From NCBI GenBank assembly GCA_903911435.1, contig CAIWDF010000063.1, positions 1 to 37,376 on the forward strand: 37,376 bases of DNA, written 5' to 3'. Positions 4,298-37,376 of the stretch are shown in pieces. The DNA comes from an uncultured Bacteroidota bacterium. GTDB lineage: Bacteria; Bacteroidota; Bacteroidia; 2-12-FULL-35-15. Each line of letters begins with the position of its first letter. Position 1 is the first letter of the stretch. The notes beneath the pieces were generated by a model. That model saw only the letters and a list, made by a program, of their open reading frames with translations, ran no database searches and was not told the origin of the DNA. The position numbers were made by a program, and so were the translations under genes.

Positions 4298-4311
4298 CGA
4301 ACGATAAAAAT

Positions 4312-4384: not shown

Positions 4385-4404
4385 CTTGGTGATGATGTAT
4401 AATA

Positions 4405-4436: not shown

Positions 4437-4464
4437 AGTTGTTGCAATTACTAATTTTCTATTT

Positions 4465-5166: not shown

Positions 5167-5194
5167 ATTTTATGTCATTTAAAGTTTCCGACAC

Positions 5195-5202
5195 CAAAAT
5201 TA
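5195..5202 (-). promoter_or_regulatory. -7 element for the 233-residue protein gene
   Basis: TAATTTTG on the minus strand, followed by GTGTC, ends 28 bases before the ATG at 5166. No clear -33 TTTG is visible. Confidence 0.55.
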
Positions 5203-5329
5203 TTGAAAAAAATAATATGTTTTTTAGTTTTGGGGTAATTTTTTTTAAAAGTCGTCCGAATACCTATCGAAAACAACATGTAAAGTATTATTTATCTGCA
5301 TTTTATACCATTCAGGATGTTATTAAACC

Positions 5330-5525: not shown

Positions 5526-5606
5526 GACACTCATCTGTTCTTGTGAGATTACCTCGTTAGGCTTTGTATTGAAAATTATTGCAAAAAATGAAGTGCAGAA
5601 ATCCAC

Positions 5607-7427
5607 CTACTCCACACTGTAAAGTTCAATCCTCATGTCATCCACATAAAATCTTTTTTTATTTGGATTCCAAACATAGATGCTAAGGTTAGCGTTCTTA
5701 GAGTGGATGGGAGGCAAAGAAATTTCGAATTGCAAATTACGCCAAGTGTCAAAATCATCATATGGCAAGTCGTTCAGCACATTTCCATTCCAATACTTTG
5801 TTTTCGTTCCTGCTGAATCTAGAGCTATAACTAAATAACTATTAGCGCCCGCATTCGGTTCTTTCTCGCGTTTATTAAGGCTTACCTTGAGGTAGGTAGG
5901 TTGTTTCATAAAATCATCCACGTGTTCCACACGATACGTTGCACCGAATTCGTGTTCATTATCCAACAACAACATGTTGCTCGGTTTCGCATCGCGTTCG
6001 TTGCATCGCACTATTGAAGCCGAGTTCCAGCCATTCTTCTCTTGTTCAAAATCATTGAATGATGAAAAGGCTTTGTTCATGCTGAGTTTACCATACACCA
6101 CATCGTTGGTACCCGCCAACACCCCACGGTACTTGTCGTCTGTCTTGAGAAACACATATTTATATTTTTCAAAATTCATGTCTTCGGGATGAATAATGAA
6201 ATGCATGTATTGATACGTTTGTATGCCACTAATGATGAGCAACAAAACACTTATCCCTACAACTATTGATTTTAGTGCATTTGAGCGAAGTGAAGCAAAA
6301 ACAAAAGCAAGCAACACAGCAAACAAAGGATAAAAATCGATGTACGGGCGCAAACCAAAACTCGAACCGAAATACCAATTCCACCACGATGAAGTAATGT
6401 AAAACAATAGAAAAAGAAACACTGCAACACTTTTGAATTGGTATTTATTGTTTTTGTATAGAGGAACAAAACCCAATAAACTCAGTAGAAGTAAAGGAGT
6501 GTATACAAATAAACCTTTTCGAAAACCAAATAAACTTTGCATCCAATGTGCATGTCCGAAATCAAAACCTTCGCCTTTATACGACCACACTACCCAATGA
6601 CCTGTCTGTTGATACCATAGCAAGAGTTGAATACAAATCAATAGAATTGGCACAATGCATGCATAAAGCAGGAGTTTAGTCTTACTCTTCATTTCTTTTA
6701 CGAATGTGCTAAAACGGCTTGAATGCTCAGCAAAGAATGGCCAAAGCAAAACAACAATCATATTGTTCGGACGAATCAATGCGATGATAGCAAGCAACGA
6801 AACAACAGGAATAATAAGCTTTGCAAGGCTTTCCGAAAACATTCGTTTTGAATAATAAAAAAACATGGCCATCATGGCGAATGAATACACATGCGACATA
6901 GAAGGTGCTATGCATGCATAATAAAACAAATTAGTGCCAAATAATATGAGTACAAGCACCCATGCGATGACCCATTCAGGAAAAGAAAATGAGAGTAATA
7001 ATTTTCGTAGAAACCACAAACCAAGCAGCAGATAAGCCAATGCAGCTATGCTCACCGAAAGCTGAAAAGGCATTGAGTATCCATCATTAGCATACCCACT
7101 CAACTTACAATAGACTTGAGCCATCATAAAGAATGGTGCTTGCAACACAGCCACACCACAGAAATACTTATCCACCTTTCGATTACCATTCGGCACTAGA
7201 AAGGAAGAAGCATAACCATCGGGCACTAATTTTTTATTCTCAAGAAAAGTAAAATTGAAATCGTGATAAATGAATACTGCAGGCAAATACGCATAATAGC
7301 CTTTGCCATCACTGCTCACTATCTCTTTCCAAGCAGCATTGTTTTCGCCCTTCCAACGAATGCTCGCTGTAAAATACATACAGATAACGAGCAATATAAA
7401 GACTATGGCTAAAGAAAGTTTTTGCAT
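5607..7427 (-). CDS. Polytopic membrane protein, GT-C glycosyltransferase-like
   Basis: 606 residues. An N-terminal membrane helix (5-22) is followed by an external loop holding SSDGKGYYAYLPAVFIYHDF, then roughly ten further hydrophobic helices up to about residue 415, for example LAYLLLGLWFLRKLLL and LLLLSLLGFVPLY. A soluble C-terminal portion (about 420-606) looks like a beta-sandwich with a jelly-roll-like end (WNPNKKRFYVDDMRIEL). A long first loop with an acidic residue before an aromatic run is the arrangement in GT-C enzymes that transfer sugars from polyprenyl-phosphate carriers, such as the PMT/ArnT type. That is an inference from architecture; I see no decisive motif. A promoter element lies at 7459-7466. 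Confidence 0.65.
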   Translation of the reverse strand: MQKLSLAIVFILLVICMYFTASIRWKGENNAAWKEIVSSDGKGYYAYLPAVFIYHDFNFTFLENKKLVPDGYASSFLVPNGNRKVDKYFCGVAVLQAPFFMMAQVYCKLSGYANDGYSMPFQLSVSIAALAYLLLGLWFLRKLLLSFSFPEWVIAWVLVLILFGTNLFYYACIAPSMSHVYSFAMMAMFFYYSKRMFSESLAKLIIPVVSLLAIIALIRPNNMIVVLLWPFFAEHSSRFSTFVKEMKSKTKLLLYACIVPILLICIQLLLWYQQTGHWVVWSYKGEGFDFGHAHWMQSLFGFRKGLFVYTPLLLLSLLGFVPLYKNNKYQFKSVAVFLFLLFYITSSWWNWYFGSSFGLRPYIDFYPLFAVLLAFVFASLRSNALKSIVVGISVLLLIISGIQTYQYMHFIIHPEDMNFEKYKYVFLKTDDKYRGVLAGTNDVVYGKLSMNKAFSSFNDFEQEKNGWNSASIVRCNERDAKPSNMLLLDNEHEFGATYRVEHVDDFMKQPTYLKVSLNKREKEPNAGANSYLVIALDSAGTKTKYWNGNVLNDLPYDDFDTWRNLQFEISLPPIHSKNANLSIYVWNPNKKRFYVDDMRIELYSVE

Positions 7428-7458
7428 TCGCTATTTTTCATTTACATCAAACATCATA

Positions 7459-7466
7459 CAAACGTA
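7459..7466 (-). promoter_or_regulatory. -7 element for the GT-C-like gene
   Basis: TACGTTTG on the minus strand ends 31 bases before the ATG at 7427, matching TAnnTTTG. It lies just past the hppA terminator, as expected for a separate transcription unit. Confidence 0.55.
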
Positions 7467-7479
7467 CTAAAAGAAAATA

Positions 7480-7509
7480 AAAAGACCCCACATTTCTGTG
7501 AGGTCTTTT
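7480..7509 (-). terminator. Terminator after hppA
   Basis: AAAAGACC and GGTCTTTT arms extended by CACA/TGTG, with one C-A mismatch and a 4-nt loop. It lies 39 bases past the hppA stop codon. Confidence 0.85.
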
Positions 7510-7548
7510 CGTATATCAATAAACTTATTACTAACGATGCACTAAAGA

Positions 7549-10137
7549 TTAGTGTTTATCAGCACAAGTTTTTCCGCAACTCTTCATGCATTCTTCTTTT
7601 GTTTTGCAGCCCATTGTGCAGCCTTCCATACAAGCACCTTCGTGTTTTTCGGAACAAGAAGCAGCTTTCTTTTTGCAGCAATCTTTCTCCATTCCTTCGC
7701 ATTTCGAACTGCCTGCCGAACACATTTTTTTACATTCAGTATTTCCTTTTTTCTCACACTCTTCGTGACATTTACCTTCGCATTTATTGTCGCAAGGAAT
7801 TCCTGCTTCTTTACATTTAGTAATACACTCTTCGTTACAAAATGCAGTACCAGCATGTTTCACACACATTTCTTTTTCTTCAGGTGAGCATTTCATCGAG
7901 TCGCAATAGTTAGCACACTCTTCAGCAGTCATTTTAGTGCATTTGCTCATGTCGCAAGTCATTTCCATTCCTTCGCCACATTCTTTCATACCCATCTTGC
8001 ACTCGCTTCCCATTCCTCCTTCCGAAGAATTAACAGCAATGTAAGGAGCAATAACCAACGATACGATTGACATTAATTTAATCAAGATATTCATTGATGG
8101 TCCAGAAGTATCTTTGAAAGGATCTCCAACAGTATCGCCTGTTACAGAAGCTTTGTGTGGTTCTGATTTTTTATAGAACATTTCACCATTAATCATTACA
8201 CCTTTCTCAAACGATTTCTTTGCATTGTCCCATGCACCACCAGCGTTGCTTTGGAAAATTCCCATCAACACACCCGATACGGTAACACCAGCTAACAAAC
8301 CACCCAATACTTCAGGCCCGAAAATAAATCCAACCAAAACAGGAGTAATTAATGCAATGGCTCCAGGCATCATCATTTCGCGAATAGATGCTTTTGTAGA
8401 AATAGCAACACATTTTTCGTATTCAGGTTTTGCTTTGTATTCCATGATACCAGGAATCTCGCGGAATTGTCTACGCACTTCCTGAACCATGTCCATAGCA
8501 GCTTTACCAACCGCTTGAATACACAATGCAGAGAAAATAAATGGAATCATAGCACCAACAAATAAACCAGCAAGAACAGTTGCTTTATAAATATCAATAT
8601 GTTGATTCTCTGGCATTGCAATACCAACAAACGCAGCAAATAATGCCAATGAAGTTAATGCCGCAGATGCAATAGCAAAACCTTTTCCAGTGGCAGCAGT
8701 AGTATTACCAACTGCATCCAAATTATCAGTACGTTCGCGCACTTCAGGAGGCAATTGACTCATCTCTGCAATTCCACCAGCGTTATCAGCAATCGGTCCG
8801 AAAGCATCAATCGCTAATTGCATTGCTGTTGTACTCATCATACCCGCAGCAGCAATTGCCACACCATACAATCCAGCAAAATGATACGAAGCCATGATAC
8901 CACCAGCTAAAGTAAGAATAGGTATCACTGTTGATTTCATACCTACTGATAAGCCACCAATGATATTGGTAGCATGTCCGGTTGATGATTGTTGAATAAT
9001 AGACAATACTGGTTTCTTACCCATTGCAGTATAATATTCGGTTACCACACTCATGATGGCACCTACTATCGAACCTACAACAATTGCGTAAAATACATTA
9101 ATGTTGGAAAATTCATATCCTCTCAAACTCAATTGAGCAGGTAACATGAACATCACCACAAAGTAAGAAACAATAATCATGATAATGATTGATGACCAAT
9201 TACCCAAATTCAATGCATTTTGTACACTTGATTTTTCATCCTTAATACGAACAAAGAAAGTTCCGATGATAGAAGCAACAATACCTAAACCACAGATGAC
9301 CATTGGTAGCAAAATTGGTGATAATCCACCATAATTATCAGTTACTATAATCTCTTGACCCAATACCATGGTAGCAAGAATAGTAGCCACATAAGAACCA
9401 AATAAATCGGCACCCATACCAGCCACATCACCTACGTTATCACCTACGTTATCAGCGATAGTAGCAGGGTTACGAACGTCATCTTCAGGAATACCTGCTT
9501 CGACTTTACCAACTAAATCGGCTCCAACGTCAGCAGCCTTTGTATAAATACCACCACCAACTCTAGCAAATAATGCAATAGACTCAGCACCTAGCGAGAA
9601 TCCTGTTAATACCTCTATTGCAGTTTTCACTGTGTCGGTACCCATTCCACTAAAATACTGTAAGAATGCAATGAATAAACCACCTAAACCTAACACAGCA
9701 AGTCCAGCAACACCAAGCCCCATAACCGTGCCTCCTGTAAAAGATACCTTTAATGCTTGTTTCAAACTAGTACGAGCTGCTTGTGTAGTACGAACATTTG
9801 CTTTTGTAGCTACCTTCATTCCTATATATCCAGCGGTAGCCGAAAATACAGCACCTATTATGAAAGCAAGGCATATGATCCAACTTGAATGAATAGGTTT
9901 ACCATTAATTTCGTGAATAGTTCCAGAGTATGCCAACAAAGCAGCCGCAAACACAACGAAAATGCTAAGCACTTTCCATTCTGCTTTCAAAAAAGCCATA
10001 GCTCCATCTGCTATATAGCCTGCAAGCTCTTGCATGTTTTTATCGCCTGCATCTTGTTTACTAACCCATGCCGACTTTATGGCCATTACTATCAATCCTA
10101 AAACCCCTAATGCGGGTACCAAATAAATGATGTTCAT
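7549..10137 (-). CDS. hppA: K+-dependent membrane pyrophosphatase with cysteine-rich C-terminal tail
   Basis: 862 residues. It hydrolyses pyrophosphate in the cytoplasm and pumps Na+ or H+ across the inner membrane. Residues 1-703 are a complete 16-helix M-PPase with the catalytic segments [16 protein letters not shown] (about 199-213) and [20 protein letters not shown] (about 229-248). The [10 protein letters not shown] motif (477-486), with Ala rather than Lys, indicates the K+-dependent class, where many members pump Na+; which ion is moved here is not settled. Residues 704-862 are unusual. This hydrophilic tail contains 27 cysteines plus many Lys, Glu and Met, is far beyond the normal end of the family, and should face the periplasm by family topology. 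Transcription probably starts at the box 10228-10235, giving a leader of about 87 nt with two hairpins. Confidence 0.95.
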
Positions 10138-10182
10138 CTTGTTTTTATTATATTAATTTGTTTTGTTTGTTTAAAATAAATC

Positions 10183-10226
10183 GTTGATTAAAAGAAAATT
10201 AATCAACACCTTTTTTCAAAAGGGGT
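10183..10226 (-). other. Two-hairpin 5' leader of hppA
   Basis: On the minus strand the predicted leader begins with a CACC/GGTG hairpin (10206-10226). A second stem, GTTGATTA paired with TAATCAAC (10183-10207), follows at once. A role in RNA stability or regulation is only inferred. Confidence 0.4.
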
Positions 10227-10227
10227 G

Positions 10228-10235
10228 CAAAAATA
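10228..10235 (-). promoter_or_regulatory. -7 element for hppA
   Basis: TATTTTTG on the minus strand fits TAnnTTTG and lies directly upstream of the hairpin leader. Confidence 0.55.
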
Positions 10236-10296
10236 GCTAAATTATGCTAATTAGCAAAACTATGCTTAAAGGAAAGAGAAAAACTCACAAAAAGAA

Positions 10297-12906
10297 TTAG
10301 TTATCAATGGTATCAAACAAAGATTTTATCTCTAAGTTTAGGGGCAAATTACCAACGAAAGACTGCTTGCATTTTCCCTTAATTGCTTCACCATTTATGA
10401 TGGTAATTACTTTTTGTTGATTAGGACTAAGGTCAAAATAATTATCACTCAACCTTCCGCCCAACTCATCAATATATACCATCTTCGCAAATTTATCAGT
10501 TGTAAGCTCAAATTTATTATTACCAATTGCTGTCATTTTGAAATTAGCTTTGTGCAATTCCATGTCTTTCGGTTTCACGAAACAGTAAGTTTCGAATTTT
10601 GCTTCTGAAACACCATTCAATTTGAGCCTTACTAGTAGCTGAAGACTTCTTATATCTAAATTTATAAGTTCCGATTTATCAATCACAAAATAACTAGAAC
10701 TACTATTTTGCTTAATGAATACTTTCTGTGATTTATTCCATTTTACCGATCCATTAAAATCAACTAATTGAACTTCCAAACTTCCTTCTTCGTTTAGCAA
10801 GTTATCATTCACAATGTAAACCGCATATTTATCTTTCTCTTCTATAAAGGAAATTAAAATATTATCATAACTCCGTTTAGCCTGATAATGCAAAGCTTTC
10901 CAACTCCCCGTATAGTCAACACTACTCCAAGAGGTAACCGGCCAACAATCATTTAATTGCCAATACAAAGTTCCCATACAATAAGGTTTCGCTCTGCGAT
11001 GTGCTTCAATTGCGGTTTTCATTCCTTCAGCCTGCAAAATTTGAGAAACATATACATAGTTTTCGAACCGCTTGGGTACTTTATAATCACGCTCCATATA
11101 TGTTGTGATGGTTTTGTATCCAGTCGGATGCTTTTGATGCGCCTTTAAGTTAGTGGTGTCATATATTTCGTAATACCTAGTTATTGAGTCGTTGAAATTG
11201 ATCCTATCAGAAGGGCGTTGAATTACACCTGAAGTCATAAGACAATTGAGTGAAGGCATTCCTTGAAACCCATACTCACTCATAAATCTTCCAACCTTTT
11301 CTTTGTATACATCAAAAGATTCCATTCCCCACCAAACTCCCCAATAGTGAGAATCTCCCTGTTGTAAACTTTCTTTATGTCCCCACCCAATACTTGGTGA
11401 TGATTGCCAATAATTTCTTTGCGAATCGTATTTCTTCACTATTTCAGGTATGGTTTTTTGAAAGAGATTAGTATAATCTTTCCAAATAGAAATCGAGTCT
11501 GATTTTGAATAATGATATTGTTTCTGCCATCCCCAATTTTTCCATCCTTCGTCTACCTCATTGTTGCCACACCATAGAGCGATACTTGTATGATTTCTTA
11601 ATCGTACAACTTGTTGTTTTATTTCTTCTGATACATTCAGAACGAAGTGTTCATCACCAGGATACATGGCACAAGCAAACATAAAATCTTGCCAAATCAA
11701 AATTCCTTTTTCATCACATGCATTGTAAAATTCATCATCAGCATACACTCCTCCTCCCCAAACTCGCAACATATTCATGTTAGCATCCACTGCATTTTGA
11801 ACAATCGTTTGATAATCAGATTTTGTAACTCGAGGTAAAAAATTGTCAGGAGGAATATAATTAGCACCCTTCATAAAAACAGGCACTCCATTCAATTTAA
11901 AACAGAATGACTTTCCGATACTATCTTTATCTTGCACCAATTCCAGTGTTCGCAAGCCAACCTTAACTGATTTAGAATCTATTTCTTTTTTCTGGTAATA
12001 AAGTTGAATAGAGAAAGGATATAACGAAGATTTTCCTAATCCATTACACCACCATCTTTGTGGATTATCAATGGAATTCACTATTGAGCAGTAATTAATT
12101 CCCTTTTTTAAGTGAACAGTGTGGTGAGAAACAGAAGCTATTCCAGTTTCACTTAATTCAGGCGAATAACGAACAACGGATAAAATGAAATTGGTATCTA
12201 AATCCGAACTGATTTCACAGTTAAACTCTAACTCAGCTTTCGATTCTGTAAGTTTTTTTTGAATGCTCTCAATGTTTTCAATCTTTGCAGTATTCCATAA
12301 AATTAGCTTCACATCCTTGTAAATCCCACAAGTCACATACCTTGGACCCCAATCCCAACCATATTGATACTGCGCCTTCCTTGTAAATACCTTTTCATCA
12401 CCAGGCAGTGTATAACTCAACTTTGCGGCTTCTTTCTTTCCAAATTTACTCGCAGAGAAAAATATTAAAGCCAAATTATTTTCTCCACTCTTTAGAAATC
12501 TTTTTACATCGACAGTCCATTGACGAAACATATTATCCGTAGTCAATATCAACGAATCGTTGAGATAAATTTCCGAATAGGTATCTAACCCGTCAAATCT
12601 CAACTCGACATGTTGATTTGATAACTCCTCTTGAGTAACGTTAAATGAGGTTTGATAATTCCAATCTTCTTCCTCTATCCACTGAAGTTTCTTTTCATTA
12701 TCCCCATAAAATGGATCAGGTATTTTTTTATTCTTGAATAAATCGGTATGTACTGCACCAGGAACAGTTGCAGGCAACCATACTACATCACCTTTCTTTC
12801 GAAAATTCCATTGGTAATGCGAAAGAGAAATCTCTGAGGATTGAGAAAATAAACATACAGGAAACAACAGAAGCAAAAACAGTGAACGCATTTGCTTCTT
12901 ATTCAC
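10297..12906 (-). CDS. GH2 beta-mannosidase, exported
   Basis: 869 residues. A signal peptide (1-21, ending LFSQ) is followed by the sugar-binding, Ig-like and TIM-barrel domains of glycoside hydrolase family 2. The beta-mannosidase type is shown by YQYGWDWGPRYVTCGIYKDV (180-199), the acid/base pair NE in WCGNNEVDEGW (Glu450), and the nucleophile in MSEYGFQGMPS (Glu544). It removes beta-mannose, for example the beta-1,4 mannose of the N-glycan core. It is the last gene of the six-gene operon and overlaps the end of the CutC-family gene by 8 bases, indicating translational coupling. Its length is normal for periplasmic GH2 mannosidases. Product class is confident; substrate is inferred from operon context. 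Confidence 0.9.
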   Translation of the reverse strand: MNKKQMRSLFLLLLFPVCLFSQSSEISLSHYQWNFRKKGDVVWLPATVPGAVHTDLFKNKKIPDPFYGDNEKKLQWIEEEDWNYQTSFNVTQEELSNQHVELRFDGLDTYSEIYLNDSLILTTDNMFRQWTVDVKRFLKSGENNLALIFFSASKFGKKEAAKLSYTLPGDEKVFTRKAQYQYGWDWGPRYVTCGIYKDVKLILWNTAKIENIESIQKKLTESKAELEFNCEISSDLDTNFILSVVRYSPELSETGIASVSHHTVHLKKGINYCSIVNSIDNPQRWWCNGLGKSSLYPFSIQLYYQKKEIDSKSVKVGLRTLELVQDKDSIGKSFCFKLNGVPVFMKGANYIPPDNFLPRVTKSDYQTIVQNAVDANMNMLRVWGGGVYADDEFYNACDEKGILIWQDFMFACAMYPGDEHFVLNVSEEIKQQVVRLRNHTSIALWCGNNEVDEGWKNWGWQKQYHYSKSDSISIWKDYTNLFQKTIPEIVKKYDSQRNYWQSSPSIGWGHKESLQQGDSHYWGVWWGMESFDVYKEKVGRFMSEYGFQGMPSLNCLMTSGVIQRPSDRINFNDSITRYYEIYDTTNLKAHQKHPTGYKTITTYMERDYKVPKRFENYVYVSQILQAEGMKTAIEAHRRAKPYCMGTLYWQLNDCWPVTSWSSVDYTGSWKALHYQAKRSYDNILISFIEEKDKYAVYIVNDNLLNEEGSLEVQLVDFNGSVKWNKSQKVFIKQNSSSSYFVIDKSELINLDIRSLQLLVRLKLNGVSEAKFETYCFVKPKDMELHKANFKMTAIGNNKFELTTDKFAKMVYIDELGGRLSDNYFDLSPNQQKVITIINGEAIKGKCKQSFVGNLPLNLEIKSLFDTIDN

Positions 12907-20385: not shown

Positions 20386-20688
20386 TACTTTTGCTCCAAC
20401 ATAGGACACTTTTACTCCAACAGCGAATACTTTTGTTCCAACACTGGACACTTTTGCTCCAACACAGGACACTTTTGTCCCAACAGCGAATACTTTTGTT
20501 CCAAAAGTGAATACTTTTGCTCCAACACAGGACACTTTTGTCCCAACAGAGGACACTTTTGCTCCATCACAGGATACTTTTGTTCCAACACAGGACACTT
20601 TTGCTCCATCACAGGATACTTTTGTTCCAACACTGGACACTTTTACTCCATCACAGGATACTTTTACTCCATCACAGGACACTTTTGG
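20386..20688. repeat. 21-bp tandem repeat array, 14 full copies plus a partial
   Basis: Units start every 21 bases from 20386 to 20659, with a partial copy from 20680. The unit has an invariant CTTTT core (ACTTTTG in most copies), then YTCCAAC or YTCCATC, then a variable end (ACAGGA, ACTGGA, AGCGAA, AGTGAA). The first base alternates T/C. The repeat carries no stop codon in any of six frames, so long spurious frames cross it on both strands. A degenerate unit before it makes an inverted repeat with the first copy (9-bp arms around 20374-20395). The rest of 20212-20873 shows no gene or clear promoter; TCTTTTTG near 20812 is one mismatch from a -7 box. Confidence 0.95.
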
Positions 20689-28171: not shown

Positions 28172-31117
28172 TTAAATTCCTATATTCGCGGTATCCAATC
28201 TTTGCATCTCGTTTACTTCTATACTTACAAAACTAAACTCATCCGTTACTCTTCCTATTAGCAGATAACATCCCGGACCAATAAACGGATATTGTTTAAG
28301 GGAAGGAGGAAAATGAACGGTGTCAATCCACATCCCTTCTGTGTCAGTAAATGTACCGAAACACATTCGGTCGCCTTTGGATGTAGCCGTGTTTTTATAT
28401 GTTACCAGATATCCCACTATGCTTACTGTTTTGCCGATAGAGTTCCTCAACTCCTTTGCGGTAGCTGTTGCGGGTAGTTTGTCTTTCAGCATTTCGAAAG
28501 GAGAACAGAGCGGAAAACCCAATAGCTCCAATTCATCAAAAGCATCATCCAGTTTATTGTCTTCAAGCTTTGGCAATTTCCAACTCGGAGGTTTCACTTC
28601 AAATAATTCGGCAACTTTCTCCGGTTTTTTTAAATGATTAATTAGCATGTATATCTCCCACAAGAGTTCTTTTTTGTTTTTAGTCGTAAAACTAAACGCA
28701 CCCACCCGAATCAACAAACGAATTTGTTCGAGCGAAATGGGAACACGTTTTATGAAATTGTGAAGGTCGGTGAAAAGGCCGTTCTGCTTACGTTCCTTTA
28801 TAATAGTTACAACATGATGTTCTTCCAGTTCAGCAATCAGGTTTAAACCTAAATAAATGGTTGTATCTTTAATAATGCATATTACATCGCTGTTGTTCAC
28901 ACAAGGAGGTTTAATTGTGCCGTTATTCATACGGGCTTCGTGCAGATACAATTCCTTTCGGTAAAACCCTCCGCCATTGTTGAGCGTAGCAACCATATAT
29001 TCCAAAGGAAAATATGTTTTTAAATATAAAGCCTGATAACTCTCTACTGCGTAACTTGCCGAGTGCCCCTTGGAAAAGGCGAAGTTGGCAAAGCTTTCTA
29101 TCTGTGTCCAGATTTCAAGAATGGTTTTTTCGTTATGATTCTTCTTTCTGCAATTTTCAAAGAACTTTTTACGAACTAAATTAAACTCGTTTCGCTGTTT
29201 GAATTTCCACGACATTCCCCTTCGTAAATAATCGGCTTCGGTTAATGTTAATCCGGCAAATAAATGCGCCACCTTAATTACATCTTCCTGATAAACCATT
29301 ACTCCGTAAGTTTCTTCGAGCAAATCATATAATTCGGGCAACTCCTCTCTTGCCGTTTTACGTCTGTTCTCATCGCGATAACGAAGAATATATTCCCGCA
29401 TCATTCCGCTTTTGGCTACTCCCGGGCGAATGATGGAGCTAGCTGCTACCAGCCGTAAGTAATCATCAGCATTTAATTTAGCCAACAACATTCGCATGGC
29501 AGGAGATTCTACGTAAAAACAACCTATTGTTTTTCCTTTTCGTAGCAGGACTTTCACATTATCGTCAGATGTAAATTTCTTGATATCGTGTATGTCTATC
29601 TCTGTATTTTTATTCTCCTTAATAATGTCAACGGCATCTTTTATTTTGCCCAATCCGCGCTGACTAAGAATGTCGAATTTGGCCAAGCCAATATCTTCGG
29701 CTTCCAGCATACTAAACTGAGTGGTAGGGTATCCTTTAGGAGGCATGTTAGTGGCGCAATAACTACTAATTGTTTCTTCGGAAATGAGAATCCCACTGGA
29801 ATGAACACTTAAGTGACTCGGAAAACCATGAATGAGCTCACTGTAACGAAGCACTAACTTTCCCAGGTCGTCCGTATCAGGAAATTTGGAAGGAGATTGT
29901 AATTTATCAATTTCGTCAGGAGGTAATCCAAACACTTTTCCTAATTCGCGAACCACGGCATCTTGCTGAAAGGTGTTGTAAGCACCCACCAATGCGGTGT
30001 GTTTATGGCCAAAGGTGTTAAAGATATAACGGGTGATATCATCTCTGTCTGTCCACGAAAAATCAATATCGAAATCAGGAGGGTTGCTGCGTGCCGGATT
30101 AATGAAACGTTCGAAATACAAATCAAGCTGAATAGGATCTACATCGGTAATGCGAAGCAGGTAAGCCACCATGCTGTTTGCTCCGCTGCCTCTACCCACC
30201 CAATAGTAATTTTTATGCTGTGCGTATTTTATAATATCCCAGTTGATCAGAAAGTAGGAAGAGAAATTCATCTGCTCTATTATCTGCAATTCCTTTTCCA
30301 CCCGAGCAAGTACTTCTTTGGTTGGTTCGGTGTAGCGATATTTTAATCCCACTTCACATTCCCTTCTTAATTTCAGGAGGTCATTGGCAACGCTGTCGGT
30401 ATAGTGCTTTTTATTTTTATTGGAAAACTTACCATACACAAATTCTATTTTGTAATCATTCAACAATGCTTCGGTATTGCTTATTATACTTGGGTATTCG
30501 GCATAAGCCGCCAGCAATTCGTTTCGGGGGAGCATGATTTCCTCTGTCGTTCCTTGTTCGTCAACAGGCAATTTGCTTAACAATTGATTTTTATCAATTG
30601 CCCTCAATAGCCTGTGTGCATTAAATTGTCGCTTATCAGCAAAACTTACCGACTGCAAAATGACAAGCTTGTTAAGGTGTTTTCTGACGGGAGAAAAAAC
30701 TAAATTAGAAACACTTTTTACCGAAACACCTATAAACTCATTTTCTCGCAATTGCCAACCACTGTAAGCGGACGAGGGATAAATAATATACGCATTGTTA
30801 AAAGCAGGAGCTTCGTTTTCGAACGGGAGATGATGATGTAAATGATACGAAAGGTGTTCGTTGAGTTCTTTGAATCCTTCATTATTAATGGCGATACCAA
30901 CGTATTGCTGTTTCACACCATTTCTGAAATCGATGCCTAATACTGGTTTAATACCTTGTGCATTTGCCGAACGAACCATGTCTATACAAGCGGAAGTATT
31001 ATTAATATCAGTAAGTGCAAAGGAGGAATAACCTTTGCGCTTTACTTCAGCCAACAATTCGTCAACAGTAAATACTCCGTAGCAAAAACTATAATATGTA
31101 TGACAATTGAGTAACAT
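28172..31117 (-). CDS. Short DnaE-type DNA polymerase (error-prone, DnaE2/ImuC-like)
   Basis: 981 residues. The domains are PHP (1-220), palm/fingers with GRGSGANSMVAYLL (308-321), catalytic DFDID (Asp350, Asp352) and AKFDILSQRGLGKI (Asp482), helix-hairpin-helix (about 760-830) and an OB-fold (about 890-970) at the end. The tau-binding C-terminal domain of replicative DnaE is missing. The PHP site is degraded: the usual HxH start reads NCH, and the usual TDH reads TDINN, so PHP metal-dependent activity is probably lost. It starts 20 bases after a Y-family polymerase gene, the arrangement of DNA-damage mutagenesis cassettes. A lesion-bypass role is therefore likely rather than replication. Confidence 0.88.
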   Translation of the reverse strand: MLLNCHTYYSFCYGVFTVDELLAEVKRKGYSSFALTDINNTSACIDMVRSANAQGIKPVLGIDFRNGVKQQYVGIAINNEGFKELNEHLSYHLHHHLPFENEAPAFNNAYIIYPSSAYSGWQLRENEFIGVSVKSVSNLVFSPVRKHLNKLVILQSVSFADKRQFNAHRLLRAIDKNQLLSKLPVDEQGTTEEIMLPRNELLAAYAEYPSIISNTEALLNDYKIEFVYGKFSNKNKKHYTDSVANDLLKLRRECEVGLKYRYTEPTKEVLARVEKELQIIEQMNFSSYFLINWDIIKYAQHKNYYWVGRGSGANSMVAYLLRITDVDPIQLDLYFERFINPARSNPPDFDIDFSWTDRDDITRYIFNTFGHKHTALVGAYNTFQQDAVVRELGKVFGLPPDEIDKLQSPSKFPDTDDLGKLVLRYSELIHGFPSHLSVHSSGILISEETISSYCATNMPPKGYPTTQFSMLEAEDIGLAKFDILSQRGLGKIKDAVDIIKENKNTEIDIHDIKKFTSDDNVKVLLRKGKTIGCFYVESPAMRMLLAKLNADDYLRLVAASSIIRPGVAKSGMMREYILRYRDENRRKTAREELPELYDLLEETYGVMVYQEDVIKVAHLFAGLTLTEADYLRRGMSWKFKQRNEFNLVRKKFFENCRKKNHNEKTILEIWTQIESFANFAFSKGHSASYAVESYQALYLKTYFPLEYMVATLNNGGGFYRKELYLHEARMNNGTIKPPCVNNSDVICIIKDTTIYLGLNLIAELEEHHVVTIIKERKQNGLFTDLHNFIKRVPISLEQIRLLIRVGAFSFTTKNKKELLWEIYMLINHLKKPEKVAELFEVKPPSWKLPKLEDNKLDDAFDELELLGFPLCSPFEMLKDKLPATATAKELRNSIGKTVSIVGYLVTYKNTATSKGDRMCFGTFTDTEGMWIDTVHFPPSLKQYPFIGPGCYLLIGRVTDEFSFVSIEVNEMQRLDTANIGI

Positions 31118-31137
31118 GAGTTCATTTGTTTGTTTTT

Positions 31138-32316
31138 TTATCCCTTAAAAGGATTGAAGTTTTTTAGTTTTAGGCCTAACCCCGAGGCCCGAACTACAGC
31201 ATTCTCTCCGTATCTCGTCCGCATTTTGTCCATTGCCCCGTATAGTTGCAACTGTTCCATATTATCCTCAAATAAATTATATTGATAGTTACCCTGCACC
31301 AGCCCGCTAAACCTAACTCCTATTAATCGGATAAGCATCCGCTTGTGATACAGTTTATCAAACAATTCCTTTACCTTCTCAATGATGACATGGTCTAGCG
31401 ATGTATAAGCTAAGTGTGCCTGCATCGTATATGTATTAAAATCAGAATACCTTATTTTTACTGTAACGCAACTCATCAAATCGCCCTTACTCCTCAACTG
31501 AAAAGCCAGTTTCTCGGTCATACTCACCAGCAAATCCTTCAGCCCTTTCACATCTATTGTGTCCTTATCAAATGTCCGTTCTGTACTTATACTCTTTCGT
31601 TCGCTGTATTGCTCCACAGGAGTATTGTCAATACCATTTGCTTTTCTCCAAATCAGCCTGCCGTTTGCACCCATCACTTGCTCCATAAGTTCTATAGGCA
31701 TTTCCTGCAAGGTGTGTATCTTGGCCACACCCATACTCCTCAGCAGCTCGTATGATTTATCGCCTACCATCGGAATTTTCTTTATCGATAGAGGAGCGAG
31801 AAAACCTTTTTCTGTTCCGCTCGGAATTTCATTCTGTCCATTGGGTTTCGCTTCGCCAGTACCTACTTTCGCTACCGTTTTGTTGGTGCTTAGGGCAAAT
31901 GAAATGGGCAAACCTGTCTCCTTTATTATTACGTTTCTCACCTCCGTAGCTAGTTTATACGAACCGTAAAACGTATCCATCCCCGTTAAATCAATATAAA
32001 ATTCATCTATCGAAGTTTTTTCATAGAGAGGCACTCTCTCCTTTATGATTTCGGTTACTTGTTTCGAACTCTTACTATATTCCTCAGAATCTCCCTTTAC
32101 TAGCATAGCTTCTGGGCAAATTTTCCGTGCCATTCGCATCGCCATTCCTGAGTGTACGCCAAACTTGCGCGCTTCGTAACTGCACGATGCTACCACACCT
32201 CGGTCGCTGGTACCGCCTACCAGAACAGGTTTTCCTGCTAGCTTCGAATTCTTGAGTCGTTCTACCGAAACAAAAAAAGTATCTAAGTCGATATGCATTA
32301 TTGAACGATTGCTCAT
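31138..32316 (-). CDS. dinB: Y-family DNA polymerase (DinB/Pol IV-like)
   Basis: 392 residues. The first catalytic Asp is in MHIDLDTFF (Asp10), the second site is SIDEFYIDL (Asp104, Glu105), and SYEARKFGVHSGMAM is the fingers motif. Both helix-hairpin-helix and little-finger regions follow. QYNLF (345-349) is a good beta-clamp-binding motif. Catalytic residues are intact, unlike ImuB proteins, so it should be an active translesion polymerase. It is the first gene of a two-gene unit with the short DnaE. Upstream are a 7-bp inverted repeat at 32319-32346 and a distant -7 box at 32446-32453. No LexA or UmuD-like gene is adjacent. Confidence 0.92.
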   Translation of the reverse strand: MSNRSIMHIDLDTFFVSVERLKNSKLAGKPVLVGGTSDRGVVASCSYEARKFGVHSGMAMRMARKICPEAMLVKGDSEEYSKSSKQVTEIIKERVPLYEKTSIDEFYIDLTGMDTFYGSYKLATEVRNVIIKETGLPISFALSTNKTVAKVGTGEAKPNGQNEIPSGTEKGFLAPLSIKKIPMVGDKSYELLRSMGVAKIHTLQEMPIELMEQVMGANGRLIWRKANGIDNTPVEQYSERKSISTERTFDKDTIDVKGLKDLLVSMTEKLAFQLRSKGDLMSCVTVKIRYSDFNTYTMQAHLAYTSLDHVIIEKVKELFDKLYHKRMLIRLIGVRFSGLVQGNYQYNLFEDNMEQLQLYGAMDKMRTRYGENAVVRASGLGLKLKNFNPFKG

Positions 32317-32781: not shown

Positions 32782-33237
32782 CTATTCACCGCAAGCATCA
32801 TAAATTTTCTTTTCAATTGTGGGAGACAAATAAAAATTGGTTTCTTTTATTTTTTCGATTAAGGGGCGGATTAATTTTATTTTGCCACTCAATTTAGCTT
32901 CGATTAATATGCCTAAAGTTCCTGTATAATTTATTTTTAATTCACTAGCAATTCTTCTTGCTTTTGTATCATCCAAAATCAACAAAGGATTTTTTAGCTC
33001 CACCGCCAAGGCAATTGCACTCGCTTCTCCAATATCAAGCGAAGTTTGTAATATATGTTGATAATTCATGTTTACAGGACTTTGAATTACAATCCAATCG
33101 GGAAGAGGATTGCCAAACTCTGAGGCAATTATTGAAGTGATAATAATTTCACCGAACAATATTTTAAGGAGAGCTAATTCGGAAATTTTATCTAGAAGAA
33201 TTAAGCAGCTTGTATCAGCAATGATAGTCTTTTGCAT
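32782..33237 (-). CDS. PIN-domain toxin of the DUF3368 type
   Basis: 151 residues. The PIN fold has acidic metal-binding residues in IIADTSCLILLDKI (Asp8), the GEASAIALA segment (Glu near 73) and LILDDTKARRIA (Asp pair near 90). This matches the DUF3368 branch, whose members are probable ribonuclease toxins found behind UPF0175 antitoxins. It overlaps the end of the antitoxin gene by 23 bases. The protein is full length, and all the acidic motifs expected for activity are present. Confidence 0.88.
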   Translation of the reverse strand: MQKTIIADTSCLILLDKISELALLKILFGEIIITSIIASEFGNPLPDWIVIQSPVNMNYQHILQTSLDIGEASAIALAVELKNPLLILDDTKARRIASELKINYTGTLGILIEAKLSGKIKLIRPLIEKIKETNFYLSPTIEKKIYDACGE

Positions 33238-33457
33238 TTTTTATATCATTGTCTAATTCATCAGCGGAAAAATTAAAAACAGATACACTATAATTTGCTA
33301 ACAATTCCATAAATGTTTTTTTTGAATATCCTGCAAGTTCAGCGGCTTGTCCCAAAGAAAGCTTACCCATTTCATAGAGTTGGGCAGCAAGAGCAGTAAC
33401 TACTTCTTTTGTTGTTAAATCAAAAGAATCAGGTACATTTATAGTTAGCGATTTCAT
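33215..33457 (-). CDS. UPF0175-family antitoxin
   Basis: 80 residues from the ATG at 33457. A 14-codon upstream extension exists, but the promoter box lies within it. The sequence MKSLTINVPDSFDL, then ALAAQLYEMGKLSLGQAAEL, then AGYSKKTFMELLANYSVSVF is the UPF0175 pattern: a short beta strand and a helix-turn-helix-like AELAGYSKKTF, likely used for DNA binding and autoregulation. It neutralises the PIN toxin encoded just downstream. Transcription seems to start at or next to the ATG. Confidence 0.85.
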   Translation of the reverse strand: MKSLTINVPDSFDLTTKEVVTALAAQLYEMGKLSLGQAAELAGYSKKTFMELLANYSVSVFNFSADELDNDIKNAKDYHC

Positions 33458-33461
33458 AGTG

Positions 33462-33491
33462 CAAAGATACAAAAATTTAATTTCAACCAAA
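33462..33491 (-). promoter_or_regulatory. Promoter of the toxin-antitoxin pair, leaderless arrangement
   Basis: On the minus strand TTTG (33488-33491), 18 bases, TATCTTTG (33462-33469), then CACT and the ATG. Only 4 bases separate the -7 box from the start codon. Confidence 0.7.
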
Positions 33492-33545
33492 TTTTTCATT
33501 TTCGGAAATAAATATCAGACCCAATTTTGGTCTTTCTATAAAAAC

Positions 33546-33787: not shown

Positions 33788-34669
33788 ATGGCACACAAAG
33801 CAGGATTTGTAAATATCATTGGCAGTCCGAATGTTGGAAAATCAACGCTAATGAACGTGTTGGTGGGCGAAAGGCTGTCGATTATTACCTCTAAAGCACA
33901 AACTACTCGACACCGGATCATGGGAATTGTGAATGGTGAAGATTTTCAAATTGTATATTCCGACACTCCTGGAGTGCTTAAACCGAACTATAAGTTGCAG
34001 GAATCGATGATGGAATTTGTTCATACCGCGATTACGGATGCGGATGTGATGCTATTTGTAACCGATATTTATGAGGATGAGAAGATAGATGAAAAGATAC
34101 TGAATAAGATTAAGAATGCGAAGGTGCCTGTATTGCTTCTGGTAAATAAAATAGATTTGGCAAAACAAGATGTATTGGAAAACAAAGTTCAATATTGGAA
34201 AACAGAAGTACCGAATGCAGAAGTAATTCCGGTGTCGGCTTTGGAGAAATTTAACACCAATTATATATTTGACCGAATACTTGCGCTTTTGCCCGAAGGG
34301 CCTGGTTATTACGGAAAGGATGAGTTGACAGATAAGCCGGAAAAGTTTTTTATTTCGGAGATTATTCGCGAGAAGATTTTGTTGAATTACAAGAAAGAAA
34401 TACCCTACTCGGTGGAGGTGGTAGTGGAATCGTTTAAGGAAGAAGAAAAGATAATAAGGATACGCGCTGAAATATTGGTGGTGCGCGATTCGCAGAAAGG
34501 GATTTTGATTGGCCATAAAGGTCAGGCGCTAAAAAAGGTGGGAACCGAGGCGAGGAAAGACATGGAAATATTTTTGCAAAAGCAGGTGTTTCTGGAGCTA
34601 TTTGTGAAGGTGAATAAAGACTGGCGTGATGATGGTAATCAACTAAAACGCTTTGGGTATACCAATTAA
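33788..34669 (+). CDS. era: GTPase Era
   Basis: 293 residues from the ATG at 33788. A 29-codon upstream extension is rejected, since MAHKAGFVNIIGSPNVGKST is the normal Era start. G1 is GSPNVGKS, G3 DTPG, G4 NKID and G5 VSALE, followed by a C-terminal KH domain (RIRAEILVVRDSQKGILIGH, then KGQALKKVG). Era binds the 3' end of 16S rRNA and assists 30S maturation. It is transcribed away from the tRNA gene and ends 44 bases before the next operon. Confidence 0.96.
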   Translation: MAHKAGFVNIIGSPNVGKSTLMNVLVGERLSIITSKAQTTRHRIMGIVNGEDFQIVYSDTPGVLKPNYKLQESMMEFVHTAITDADVMLFVTDIYEDEKIDEKILNKIKNAKVPVLLLVNKIDLAKQDVLENKVQYWKTEVPNAEVIPVSALEKFNTNYIFDRILALLPEGPGYYGKDELTDKPEKFFISEIIREKILLNYKKEIPYSVEVVVESFKEEEKIIRIRAEILVVRDSQKGILIGHKGQALKKVGTEARKDMEIFLQKQVFLELFVKVNKDWRDDGNQLKRFGYTN

Positions 34670-34678
34670 AAATAGTGC

Positions 34679-34686
34679 TACCTTTG
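34679..34686 (+). promoter_or_regulatory. -7 element for the epimerase-CBS operon
   Basis: TACCTTTG, 27 bases before the ATG at 34714. A TTTG at 34652-34655 is 23 bases upstream, slightly wide. It makes the three-gene unit independent of era. Confidence 0.6.
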
Positions 34687-34713
34687 CAGGCCTAAAAACC
34701 CCCAAACTAATTA

Positions 34714-35718
34714 ATGAAAATATCTGCTTCAATTTATTCGAATAAAACAAAAGGTGTAGAGACACTTGTAAGAGAATTAGATGATTTAAAAGTTGATTTT
34801 TTACACATCGATTGCAACGATGACCTTTCTGTTTTTAATGATATTGAGATTATTCAACCCATCAGCAAAACACCGATTGATTTGCATATCATCTCGTCCG
34901 AGCCTGAGAAATATTTTGCATCGCTGATAAAACATCAGGTTGATTTTGTGACTTTTCAGCATGAAAATTTAAAGGCTCCACTCCGATTACCGAAAGAAAT
35001 AAAATCGAAAATAGGGATTGCGATTGTTACGGAAACTCCGATAACGGTATTGGAGCAATATAAGGATGTGATGGATTTTGTACTGTTCATGACTACTACG
35101 CCTGGTAAAAGTGGAGGGATGTTCAACAAAGAAAACTTTAAGAAGATAAGGGATTTTAAACTGGCATTTCCGGATAAGAAAATACATGTGGACGGTGGGG
35201 TGAATGATGAGGTATCGTTTGTGTTGCGCAATATGGGTGTGTATTCGGTGGTGTCGGGGTCGTACTTAGTGAACTCAACGGTAATAGGACATGCGCTGCA
35301 TAACTTGAGGAACGATAATATTCAATCGCATATTTCGGTGAGTGAATTTATGATGAATGTGGAAGAGCTGCCTATTGTTTCTTCTCATCAATCGGTATTG
35401 ATAGATGCTTTGGAAAGTATAGAAAAGTATTGCCTTGGCTTTACCTTGATGGTGGACAACGATGGTAAACTTACTGGATTGATAAGTAATGCTGATGTGA
35501 GAAAGGGATTGATACGGAAAATAAATTCTTTGAATGAGCTATCGATAAAAGATGTGATTAACCCTAACCCTATAAAGATAGTGAACACATTGACGATATC
35601 GGAGATGTTGACTTTGGTAAAAAATTCTAAGTTCCCGATTCTTTATCTACCAGTGGTGGATGCCGAGAATAAGCTTGTGGGAGCGATTACATTTAACAAT
35701 TTAATTAAAGGAGAATAA
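34714..35718 (+). CDS. Ribulose-phosphate 3-epimerase-like TIM barrel fused to two CBS domains
   Basis: 334 residues. Residues 1-205 are a ribulose-5-phosphate 3-epimerase-type barrel with all four metal ligands in place: His31 and Asp33 (FLHIDCND), His58 (IDLHII) and Asp160 (HVDGGVND). The phosphate loop TTTPGKSGGMF is also present. Epimerase chemistry is therefore plausible, converting ribulose-5-P and xylulose-5-P or a related ketose phosphate. Residues about 209-275 and 278-334 are two CBS domains (LMVDNDGKLTGLISNADVRK and LPVVDAENKLVGAITFNNLI), which usually sense adenine nucleotides. The first resembles the CBS pair of KdsD, the arabinose-5-phosphate isomerase. It is followed after 2 bases by DAHP synthase. 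I know no standard name for this fusion. Confidence 0.85.
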   Translation: MKISASIYSNKTKGVETLVRELDDLKVDFLHIDCNDDLSVFNDIEIIQPISKTPIDLHIISSEPEKYFASLIKHQVDFVTFQHENLKAPLRLPKEIKSKIGIAIVTETPITVLEQYKDVMDFVLFMTTTPGKSGGMFNKENFKKIRDFKLAFPDKKIHVDGGVNDEVSFVLRNMGVYSVVSGSYLVNSTVIGHALHNLRNDNIQSHISVSEFMMNVEELPIVSSHQSVLIDALESIEKYCLGFTLMVDNDGKLTGLISNADVRKGLIRKINSLNELSIKDVINPNPIKIVNTLTISEMLTLVKNSKFPILYLPVVDAENKLVGAITFNNLIKGE

Positions 35719-35720
35719 AA

Positions 35721-36722
35721 ATGATTATACACTTAAAACCTGAGGTAGCAACCGAAAAAGCGGAGCAACTTGGAGTAGAATTGGAAAGCGTGGTGCTAAA
35801 GCGTGATGGATTTTATGCGCTTATCACATCGAGTAAAATGAAACCGATTGATGAAAAATACAATCAGTTTATCGCGGAGCGATTCCCATTTGATGATGAT
35901 ATTCAATTGGCAAGTAAGAAGTACATGGCAGGTGTGCGCGAGATAAAAATTACGGATAGTGTTTCGATTGGAGGAAAGCATAATAACACGGTGATGATTA
36001 CTGGTCCGTGCTCGGTGGAGTCGGAAGAACAGATAGAACAATGTTCGGAACTATGTGTGGAACTTGGTGTGAAAGTGCTGAGAGCAGGAGCCTACAAACC
36101 AAGAACAACTCCTTATGCTTTTCAAGGAATGGGATTGGCGGGGTTGAAACTTTTGGATAAAATGCGTACGAAACATGGTTTGAAAATAATTACAGAGATA
36201 CGCGACTCGACCCATGCGAGTGAGGTGATTGAGTATTCGGATATTCTTCAGATAGGTGCGAAAGCGATGTACGACCACGGCATACTGAAAGCTTGTGGCA
36301 AATCGGGGAAACCGGTGCTGCTGAAAAGAGGTTTTGGCGCTACGCTTCAGGAGTTTGTGCAAGCTGCTGAGTTTATCCTTTCGGGAGGAAATGACCAAGT
36401 GATATTGTGTGAACGAGGGATACGAACGTTTGAAACAAAAACACGTTTTACGCTTGATTTGTGCGGTGTGGCTTATTTGAAACAATATACAAACTTGCCG
36501 ATTATCCTCGACCCTAGTCATGCGATAGGTTTTGCATACGGGGTGGCTGACTTGTCGAAGGCTTGTGTGGCGATGGGTGTGGATGGACTTTTGATAGAGA
36601 CTCATCCTAATCCTTCGGTTGCAAAATCGGATGCTGCGCAACAATTGAACTTTAACCAATTCCGCGAATTGCATGCTCAACTTAATGGAGTGGCAAAGGC
36701 AGTGGGACGAACTATGATTTAG
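35721..36722 (+). CDS. aroF: 3-deoxy-7-phosphoheptulonate (DAHP) synthase, type I beta
   Basis: 333 residues. An N-terminal ferredoxin-like/ACT-like domain (1-75) precedes the PEP-binding barrel: GPCSVES (95-101), RAGAYKPRTTPYAFQGMGLA (121-140), ITEIRDSTHASEV, LLKRGFGATLQEF and ILDPSHAIGF. KPRTTPYAFQG identifies DAHP synthase rather than KDO-8-phosphate synthase, which has KANRS there. It condenses PEP with erythrose-4-P, the first step of aromatic amino acid synthesis. It lies 2 bases after the epimerase-CBS gene and 3 bases before the phosphatase gene, so all three are coupled. Confidence 0.93.
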   Translation: MIIHLKPEVATEKAEQLGVELESVVLKRDGFYALITSSKMKPIDEKYNQFIAERFPFDDDIQLASKKYMAGVREIKITDSVSIGGKHNNTVMITGPCSVESEEQIEQCSELCVELGVKVLRAGAYKPRTTPYAFQGMGLAGLKLLDKMRTKHGLKIITEIRDSTHASEVIEYSDILQIGAKAMYDHGILKACGKSGKPVLLKRGFGATLQEFVQAAEFILSGGNDQVILCERGIRTFETKTRFTLDLCGVAYLKQYTNLPIILDPSHAIGFAYGVADLSKACVAMGVDGLLIETHPNPSVAKSDAAQQLNFNQFRELHAQLNGVAKAVGRTMI

Positions 36723-36725
36723 GGA

Positions 36726-37208
36726 ATGGCAAAAAAATTTAAAAAAGAGGATATTCGATTTCTGGTGCTGGATGTGGACGGTGTGCTTACTGATGGCGGA
36801 ATGTACTATTCGAACTCGGGAGATGAGTTTAAAAAATTCAATACCAAGGATGGAATGGGTATAAAAGAGATTTTGAAAAAGGGTGTGAAAGTGGGTTTTT
36901 TGAGTAATGGGAAAAATGATGCTTTGATAAAGAACCGTGCTGAATTGTTGAAGGTGGAGTATGTGTATGTGGGCAACGAAAACAAATTGAAGGTTTTGGA
37001 TAAATGGTTGAAAAAACTAAAGCTTACTTATAATAATGTGGCGTATGTGGGTGATGATATTAACGATTTGGAGGTAATGGGCCTTGTGGGACTGAGTGCA
37101 TGCCCTGGTGATGCGGTGAAAGCTGTGAAAGCAAAAGCTGGACTTATATTGAGTAAGAATGGTGGGGAAGGTTGTGTACGTGAATTGATAGATGAATATT
37201 TGATGTAA
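36726..37208 (+). CDS. kdsC: KdsC-like HAD phosphatase
   Basis: 160 residues of the capless C0 HAD family. The nucleophile motif is LDVDGVLTDG (Asp16, Asp18). FNTKDGMGIK, the LSNGKND segment (motif II), the lysine in NKLKVLDK and YVGDDINDLEVM (motif IV) follow. Length and the TKDGMGIK loop match 3-deoxy-D-manno-octulosonate-8-phosphate phosphatase (KdsC), which releases KDO for lipopolysaccharide. Relatives act on other 3-deoxy-ulosonate phosphates. It is the last gene of the operon and is followed by a strong terminator. Confidence 0.88.
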   Translation: MAKKFKKEDIRFLVLDVDGVLTDGGMYYSNSGDEFKKFNTKDGMGIKEILKKGVKVGFLSNGKNDALIKNRAELLKVEYVYVGNENKLKVLDKWLKKLKLTYNNVAYVGDDINDLEVMGLVGLSACPGDAVKAVKAKAGLILSKNGGEGCVRELIDEYLM

Positions 37209-37230: not shown

Positions 37231-37268
37231 AAAAAACTCCTTGCATTTGGTTGTAAGGAGTTTTTTTT
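37231..37268 (+). terminator. Terminator of the epimerase-CBS/aroF/kdsC operon
   Basis: Stem ACTCCTTGCA with TGTAAGGAGT (one G-T pair), a 6-base loop, preceded by A6 and followed by T8. It lies 22 bases past the kdsC stop. Confidence 0.93.
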
Positions 37269-37290: not shown

Positions 37291-37376
37291 GGGCACATGT
37301 AACAAAAAATCGCCACGTGTGACGAGAAATCGCCACGTGTGACGAGAAATCGCCACGTGTGACGAGAAATCGCCAC
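37291..37376. repeat. 20-bp tandem repeat array, cut by the right window edge
   Basis: Exact 20-base period. A degenerate copy from 37291 and one at 37301 are followed by units GACGAGAAATCGCCACGTGT at 37321 and 37341 and a partial unit at 37361. Each carries the palindrome CACGTG. Full length is unknown, because the array continues beyond the window. There is no unique spacer between copies. Confidence 0.9.

Follow-up and report, generated by a model that had tools for sequence, protein, structure and literature searches.

An operon encoding an epimerase-type/CBS fusion, a DAHP synthase-type enzyme and a KdsC-type phosphatase probably replaces the entry enzymes of 3-deoxy-D-manno-octulosonate (KDO) synthesis in Bacteroidota and some Gammaproteobacteria

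We analysed a 37,376-nucleotide contig of an uncultured Bacteroidota bacterium (GenBank assembly GCA_903911435.1, contig CAIWDF010000063.1; "the window" below means this whole stretch), and in particular an operon of three genes near its end. These genes encode a ribulose-phosphate 3-epimerase (RPE)-type barrel fused to two CBS domains, an enzyme of the 3-deoxy-D-arabino-heptulosonate 7-phosphate (DAHP) synthase type that condenses a sugar phosphate with phosphoenolpyruvate (PEP), and a KdsC-type phosphatase of the haloacid dehalogenase (HAD) family. KDO is regarded as an almost universal linker of lipid A and the core of lipopolysaccharide (LPS), with KdsD and KdsA as its fixed entry enzymes. 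We conclude that the operon very probably forms a different entry to the KDO pathway, in which non-orthologous enzymes, unrelated or distantly related to KdsD and KdsA, replace these two and a KdsC of its own is supplied as well. The three genes are as follows.

34714-35718, + strand: fusion enzyme, 334 amino acids, RPE-type TIM barrel at residues ~1-205 and CBS pair at ~207-334 (Pfam, AlphaFold, Foldseek)
35721-36722, + strand: PEP-condensing enzyme of the DAHP synthase type (type I beta), 333 amino acids, with an N-terminal ferredoxin-like domain (NCBIfam, tree, AlphaFold)
36726-37208, + strand: KdsC-type HAD phosphatase, 160 amino acids (TIGR01670)

The gap between the fusion and AroF-type genes is 2 bases and that between the AroF-type and KdsC-type genes is 3 bases. 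Open reading frames and family scans agree with the initial annotation of this DNA, which had described a three-gene operon with these products and gaps.

The genome that contains the window (G000; 4.19 Mb, 99.55% complete) holds the KDO-using half of the pathway without its two entry enzymes. Profile searches of genomes, on which the calls of gene absence here and below rest, found WaaA (C99) and KdsB (C278), no KdsD and no KdsA, the sole other PF00793 protein being a DAHP synthase/chorismate mutase (L004). The initial annotation had asked whether the genome has separate rpe, kdsD, kdsA and kdsC genes: one canonical rpe is present, separate from the fusion, and beyond the phosphatase of the operon no second KdsC-type protein was found.

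We next compared carriers of the fusion with non-carriers; the genomes (G numbers) are mostly metagenome-assembled. In the genus of the host, seven carriers were detected, all lacking both kdsD and kdsA. Among 18 apparent non-carriers, kdsD was found in 17, accompanied by a full kdsA in 16 and by a KdsA fragment at a contig edge in one (G348). In the eighteenth (G365), the contig breaks off inside the operon (L235), of which KdsC and a truncated AroF remain; it is therefore a carrier, which brings the total for the genus to eight and leaves no exception to the pattern. In 249 genomes of the order to which the carrier G041 belongs, the fusion was found in 94, KdsD in 137, neither in 18 and both in none; the nominal p value for this exclusion, 1e-50, is not meaningful as such, since it ignores kinship among the genomes. 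Three families (f56, f61 and f62) hold both carrier genera and kdsD genera, and in a fourth (f7) G552 and G586 have kdsD-kdsA although the other members of their genus are carriers, indicating several independent switches. A further 22 carriers, including four Gammaproteobacteria, were reached via other loci; KdsD was absent from all of them, no protein of KdsA size was listed, and KdsB scored over its cut-off in 21. KdsD is also missing from the gammaproteobacterial carriers G382, G383, G384 and G392, which have two kinds of PF00793 enzyme: that of the operon and one of 355-368 amino acids that scores ~325-333 bits and is unlike KdsA. Genome by genome, the operon is found in place of kdsD and kdsA. 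The comparison with KdsD-KdsA-KdsC made in the initial annotation was right and understated, in that the operon stands in for the first two KDO steps, with kdsB and waaA kept and kdsD and kdsA absent. Its phrase "a parallel of the KDO pathway" holds as an analogy, but not in the sense of a route running beside KDO synthesis, since the operon substitutes for the first two steps of the latter.

A search of GTDB genomes with the fusion returned 281 relatives, and the locus counts that follow cover the best 80 of these 281. These 80 belong to Bacteroidota (Crocinitomicaceae and other Flavobacteriales, Saprospiraceae, Chitinophagales, Cyclobacteriaceae and Bacteroidales) and to Gammaproteobacteria (Chromatiales, Halorhodospira, Ectothiorhodospiraceae and Thiohalophilus). 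An AroF-type gene adjoins the fusion in 77 of the 80 loci, with a 4-base overlap in 57, and a KdsC-type gene comes next after AroF in 68; five of the nine remaining AroF-linked loci stop at a contig edge. The initial annotation had raised the case that the fusion lies mostly away from aroF in relatives; these counts favour linkage, and the trio is a conserved unit rather than a chance cluster. In one genome (G402) the fusion stands alone, and the same special AroF lies beside a KdsC elsewhere, ~7 kb from kdsB. In Crocinitomicaceae, the operon is followed by genes for a 406-amino-acid protein, whose N-terminal domain is of the alanine dehydrogenase/PNT kind, and for an ATG22-like transporter of the major facilitator superfamily (L079:12686-15270, and the same position in ~30 loci).

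The neighbours of the operon are kdsB and lpt genes, not aro or trp genes. Within the 80 loci, kdsB lies <=2.6 kb from the operon in 12. Several gammaproteobacterial loci carry a block lptB-lptA-lptC-kdsC-kdsB, divergent from the operon; in E. coli and Burkholderia, kdsD stands beside kdsC (PMC10448790), in the position that kdsB has in the gammaproteobacterial carriers. The isolate Thiohalophilus thiocyanatoxydans DSM 16326 (L083) has the order fusion, aroF, kdsC, heptosyltransferase-like gene, kdsB, and in three Bacteroidota loci (L070, L074 and L112) kdsB is just upstream of the operon. Among Flavobacteriales non-carriers, kdsD often adjoins kdsA, mirroring the fusion-aroF arrangement. The host has kdsB and waaA without kdsD or kdsA, and carriers never have kdsD; therefore, the suggestion in the initial annotation that the operon makes a 3-deoxy sugar acid took the right direction. 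We infer that the operon supplies the acid used by KdsB and WaaA.

A diverged fusion (31%) is also encoded on a viral contig (L129, IMGVR_UViG_3300010883_022905, 1232-10387), with a condensing enzyme that has an AKAMWD signature and no N-terminal domain; beside the two are a PseF-like cytidylyltransferase (CMP-sugar-acid synthetase) gene and a NeuB-like gene. This association, together with the few carriers that lack WaaA, would fit an operon that feeds a 3-deoxy sugar acid into another glycan, such as a capsule or surface polysaccharide, with KDO made by a further route in the same genomes. We regard this as improbable: the fusion and KdsD do not co-occur in any of the 249 genomes, kdsB and lpt genes adjoin the operon, and an additional pathway would be required.

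The fusion enzyme itself is related to RPE but distinct from it. The Pfam RPE family (Ribul_P_3_epim, PF00834 fold) matches residues 2-185 at 2.9e-28, and CBS domains match in two stretches. The AlphaFold model has a predicted local distance difference test score (pLDDT) of 90, and its top Foldseek matches are RPE for the barrel and, for the CBS part, the CBS pair of the arabinose 5-phosphate isomerase KdsD (4o9k), a match that we count in favour of the replacement of KdsD. The following positions were located in the gene.

34804-34812, + strand: HID, metal ligand H31 and catalytic/metal D33 (43/43 fusion proteins, 29/29 RPE)
34885-34887, + strand: metal ligand H58 (invariant in the alignment); the nearby I60 corresponds to a Met in RPE
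35191-35193, + strand: catalytic/metal D160 of VDGG (invariant in the alignment)
35332-35715, + strand: CBS pair (two Pfam CBS stretches; TIGR00393 KpsF/KdsD, 47 bits)

The four metal ligands that the initial annotation had described as kept in the epimerase domain (H31, D33, H58 and D160) are invariant across the 43 aligned family members. The fusion shares with RPE its fold, metal ligands, both acid-base Asp residues and the phosphate-site glycines. It differs by the attached CBS pair and by changed pocket residues, and its score against TIGR01163 (RPE) is 85 bits, below the cut-off of 212.6. At positions fixed in RPE, the barrel has nearly or fully fixed substitutions in the alignment (Leu to Tyr8, Met to Asn35, Met to Ile60, His to Gln82, Val to Thr128 and Gln to Gly135), and those at Asn35 and Ile60 replace the Met residues of the RPE motifs HxDxMDG and DVHLM, which lie around the enediolate. 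As judged from the alignment, the barrel is a sharply defined subfamily with an altered substrate pocket, not an ordinary RPE. The fusion falls short of the TIGR00393 score that marks an SIS isomerase domain (203.7 bits), the 47-bit match being to its CBS part alone. Like KdsD/KpsF, it ends in a CBS pair, a general feature that is not exclusive to KdsD; in a BLAST search aimed at a specific origin of the pair from KdsD, scores about equal to those of the KdsD CBS domains came from a protein consisting of CBS domains only and from the CBS region of a 489-amino-acid protein, which we take to be inosine monophosphate dehydrogenase.

The condensing enzyme scores as a DAHP synthase in curated models (NF006421, 3-deoxy-7-phosphoheptulonate synthase, 363 bits against a cut-off of 335; TIGR01361, 315 bits against 268) and does not reach the cut-off for KdsA (TIGR01362, 118 bits against 314), whose KANRS motif is also absent. 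Its AlphaFold model (pLDDT 91.5) has DAHP synthases 4grs, 1rzm and 1zco as top fold matches. It is ~40-50% identical to the type I beta DAHP synthases of Aeropyrum, Pyrococcus and Thermotoga, shares the motif KPR[TS]SP with them, and has the N-terminal ferredoxin-like domain of the Thermotoga enzyme. Two short motifs mark the active site.

36096-36113, + strand: KPRTTP, the sugar-phosphate binding motif of DAHP synthases (KANRS in KDO 8-phosphate synthases; alignment)
36258-36275, + strand: AKAMYD, the signature of the operon enzymes (ARNxQN in DAHP synthases, AFLCRQ in KDO 8-phosphate synthases; alignment)

In the first motif, K, P, R, T and the last P are invariant across 32 aligned members, with S or T between. 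The second motif sets the operon enzymes apart from type I beta DAHP synthases, as do their separate clade and their KDO-gene neighbours in place of trp or aro genes. The loop GAKAMYDxGIL is present in 79/79 operon enzymes, with K, Y, D and the following I in every one, whereas all DAHP synthases compared, including trpA-linked ones of the host genus, have GARNxQNFxLL, with R, Q and N in 10/10. In a tree, the operon enzymes group into a single, fully supported clade beside which the phage enzyme branches; this clade is separate from DAHP synthases and well apart from KDO 8-phosphate synthases. These comparisons suggest that the condensing enzyme, too, is a sharply defined subfamily with an altered substrate pocket and not an ordinary DAHP synthase. 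We consider it very improbable that the operon serves aromatic amino acid synthesis by delivering erythrose 4-phosphate and DAHP under nucleotide control, the phosphatase then being an overflow valve. The scores above the curated DAHP synthase cut-offs would agree with such a role, as would four carriers in which no other PF00793 enzyme was seen; however, the active-site signature is unlike that of every DAHP synthase compared, and the exclusion of kdsD and kdsA would be left unexplained. The proposal in the initial annotation of erythrose 4-phosphate supply for aromatic synthesis also runs against the separate DAHP synthase/chorismate mutase and rpe of the host, the second DAHP synthase of most other carriers, and the kdsB and lpt neighbours of the operon.

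The phosphatase matches TIGR01670 (KdsC/YrbI) at 151 bits, above the cut-off of 106.95, over its full length and with the HAD motifs kept. Its scores against the models for KdsC and for the phosphatase of 3-deoxy-D-glycero-D-galacto-nonulosonate (KDN) 9-phosphate (NF058599) are about equal and both below the equivalog cut-offs (PRK09484, 149 against 208), so that the label "KdsC-like" given initially is apt. In many Bacteroidota, the operon phosphatase differs from both by a fused N-terminal Cro/C1-like helix-turn-helix (HTH) domain. This extension of 60-75 residues (HTH_3/HTH_19) is found in most Bacteroidota carriers outside the genus of the window (L242:5237-5932, L239:9679-10359, L090:12000-12692 and ~45 further loci), being clear in L242 and degenerate in Crocinitomicaceae. 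The extended protein could be a regulator-phosphatase fusion.

The operon keeps the order of steps of the KdsD-KdsA-KdsC-KdsB pathway, namely a CBS-bearing sugar-phosphate enzyme, PEP condensation and an HAD phosphatase, followed by the retained KdsB and WaaA, but has an RPE-type barrel and a DAHP synthase-type enzyme instead of the SIS isomerase and KDO 8-phosphate synthase. Because both acid-base Asp residues and the metal site are kept, the barrel most likely still epimerises beside the carbonyl. Ribose 5-phosphate and arabinose 5-phosphate are C2 epimers; KdsD instead isomerises ribulose 5-phosphate. By acting next to the aldehyde carbon, an RPE-type site with its two opposed Asp residues could turn ribose 5-phosphate directly into arabinose 5-phosphate, which KDO synthesis requires; the DAHP synthase-type enzyme would add PEP to yield KDO 8-phosphate, and the phosphatase would release KDO. 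The 3-deoxy-ulosonic acid would then be activated by an ordinary KdsB and moved to lipid A by an ordinary WaaA. The CBS pair, which may bind CMP-KDO or another nucleotide, is probably a sensor of such an end product. We consider the chance that the product is KDO itself to be somewhat better than even, and that of a close analogue to be appreciable but clearly lower.

Such an analogue could have seven carbons: C2 epimerisation of erythrose 4-phosphate would give D-threose 4-phosphate, condensation with PEP would give 3-deoxy-D-lyxo-heptulosonate 7-phosphate, and the phosphatase, KdsB and WaaA would treat the product as KDO without C8. In known enzymes, KPR[TS]SP binds a four-carbon sugar phosphate, and all members of the operon family have this motif. 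Erythrose 4-phosphate is ribulose 5-phosphate minus the C1 hydroxymethyl, so the geometry of the RPE reaction would be kept; by our own reasoning, the product would agree with the KDO ring in its stereochemistry. The changes at Tyr8, Asn35 and Ile60, with metal and phosphate sites kept, would also fit. By contrast, no fixed site in KdsB or WaaA separates carriers from non-carriers of one genus (an E. coli KdsB sequence served as bait only for finding and numbering KdsB homologues), and the switches in both directions within families suggest an unchanged end product. These two observations favour KDO as the product without being decisive. On balance we think the seven-carbon analogue unlikely, though a serious contender, and it is a slightly more doubtful proposition still that hundreds of bacteria join lipid A to the core through 3-deoxy-D-lyxo-heptulosonate made by an erythrose 4-phosphate 2-epimerase and a threose 4-phosphate/PEP synthase.

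Several observations weigh against the operon as a replacement of KdsD and KdsA. The condensing enzyme has retained KPRTSP, the motif of enzymes that use a four-carbon sugar phosphate (erythrose 4-phosphate), and lacks the KANRS of KdsA; this argues for a C7 product. Some Gammaproteobacteria hold a canonical lptC-linked kdsC besides that of the operon. Four of 48 genomes gave no match to WaaA, including the carrier G041 (2.2 Mb, 100% complete), which has KdsB and would have either a different KDO transferase or another use for the sugar acid. In G385, G395, G398 and G399, the operon enzyme is the sole PF00793 protein, class II DAHP synthases not having been searched for; there it may serve aromatic synthesis too, or a class II enzyme may. 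Related genomes are not independent events, and the tree of the host genus needs only two changes. Finally, the evidence for replacement is genomic and comparative. In the open-licence literature we found no account of an alternative KDO entry route or of a kdsA or kdsD replacement, and nothing relevant on 3-deoxy-lyxo-heptulosonate in LPS, on what sets the specificity of DAHP synthases apart from that of KDO 8-phosphate synthases, or on the RPE residues, all being weak absences. The alternative entry to KDO or a KDO-like acid is real and widespread and, within the reach of this search, undescribed.

Two candidate expression signals flank the operon.

34652-34687, + strand: candidate Bacteroidota-type promoter, with TTTG at 34652-34655, 23 bases, then TACCTTTGC (-7 box) at 34679-34687
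37231-37266, + strand: intrinsic terminator at the 3' end of the operon, a 15-pair stem followed by a T run (pattern scan)

The putative promoter lies within the 3' end of era, 27 bases ahead of the fusion start codon; the TAnnTTTGC pattern has 19 matches in the window against 11 expected, which makes this match weak by itself, and the TTTG box was read by eye. A link of the operon with era was considered and dropped, era being divergent in L054 and absent upstream in L053 and in other families. Beyond the terminator, a 20-base tandem repeat (3.5 perfect copies of AAATCGCCACGTGTGACGAG) occupies 37307-37376 at the contig end, and probably caused the contig break. Elsewhere in the window, 14 copies of a 21-base repeat lie beside a TonB-dependent receptor (20387-20687), a DNA polymerase III alpha-type gene adjoins a Y-family polymerase gene in what is possibly a translesion cassette (28172-32316, - strand), and mutually overlapping genes for a UPF0175 antitoxin-like and a DUF3368 PIN-type protein are likely a toxin-antitoxin pair (32782-33499, - strand).

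Hundreds of bacteria, mostly Bacteroidota with some Gammaproteobacteria, appear to rely on this operon for the essential sugar acid in the core of their outer membrane, either KDO or something very like it. Annotation masks it, the genes likely being named rpe or CBS protein, aroF and kdsC, so that such genomes seem to lack KDO synthesis or to have surplus aromatic genes. If the replacement is real, much of one Bacteroidota order, along with members of further Bacteroidota lineages and some Gammaproteobacteria, would use other entry enzymes, and probably another sugar-phosphate conversion, than those of the established pathway. It would further mean a new reaction for an RPE-fold enzyme and a new product for an enzyme of the DAHP synthase type, and inhibitors directed at KdsA or KdsD would be useless against the bacteria that carry the operon.

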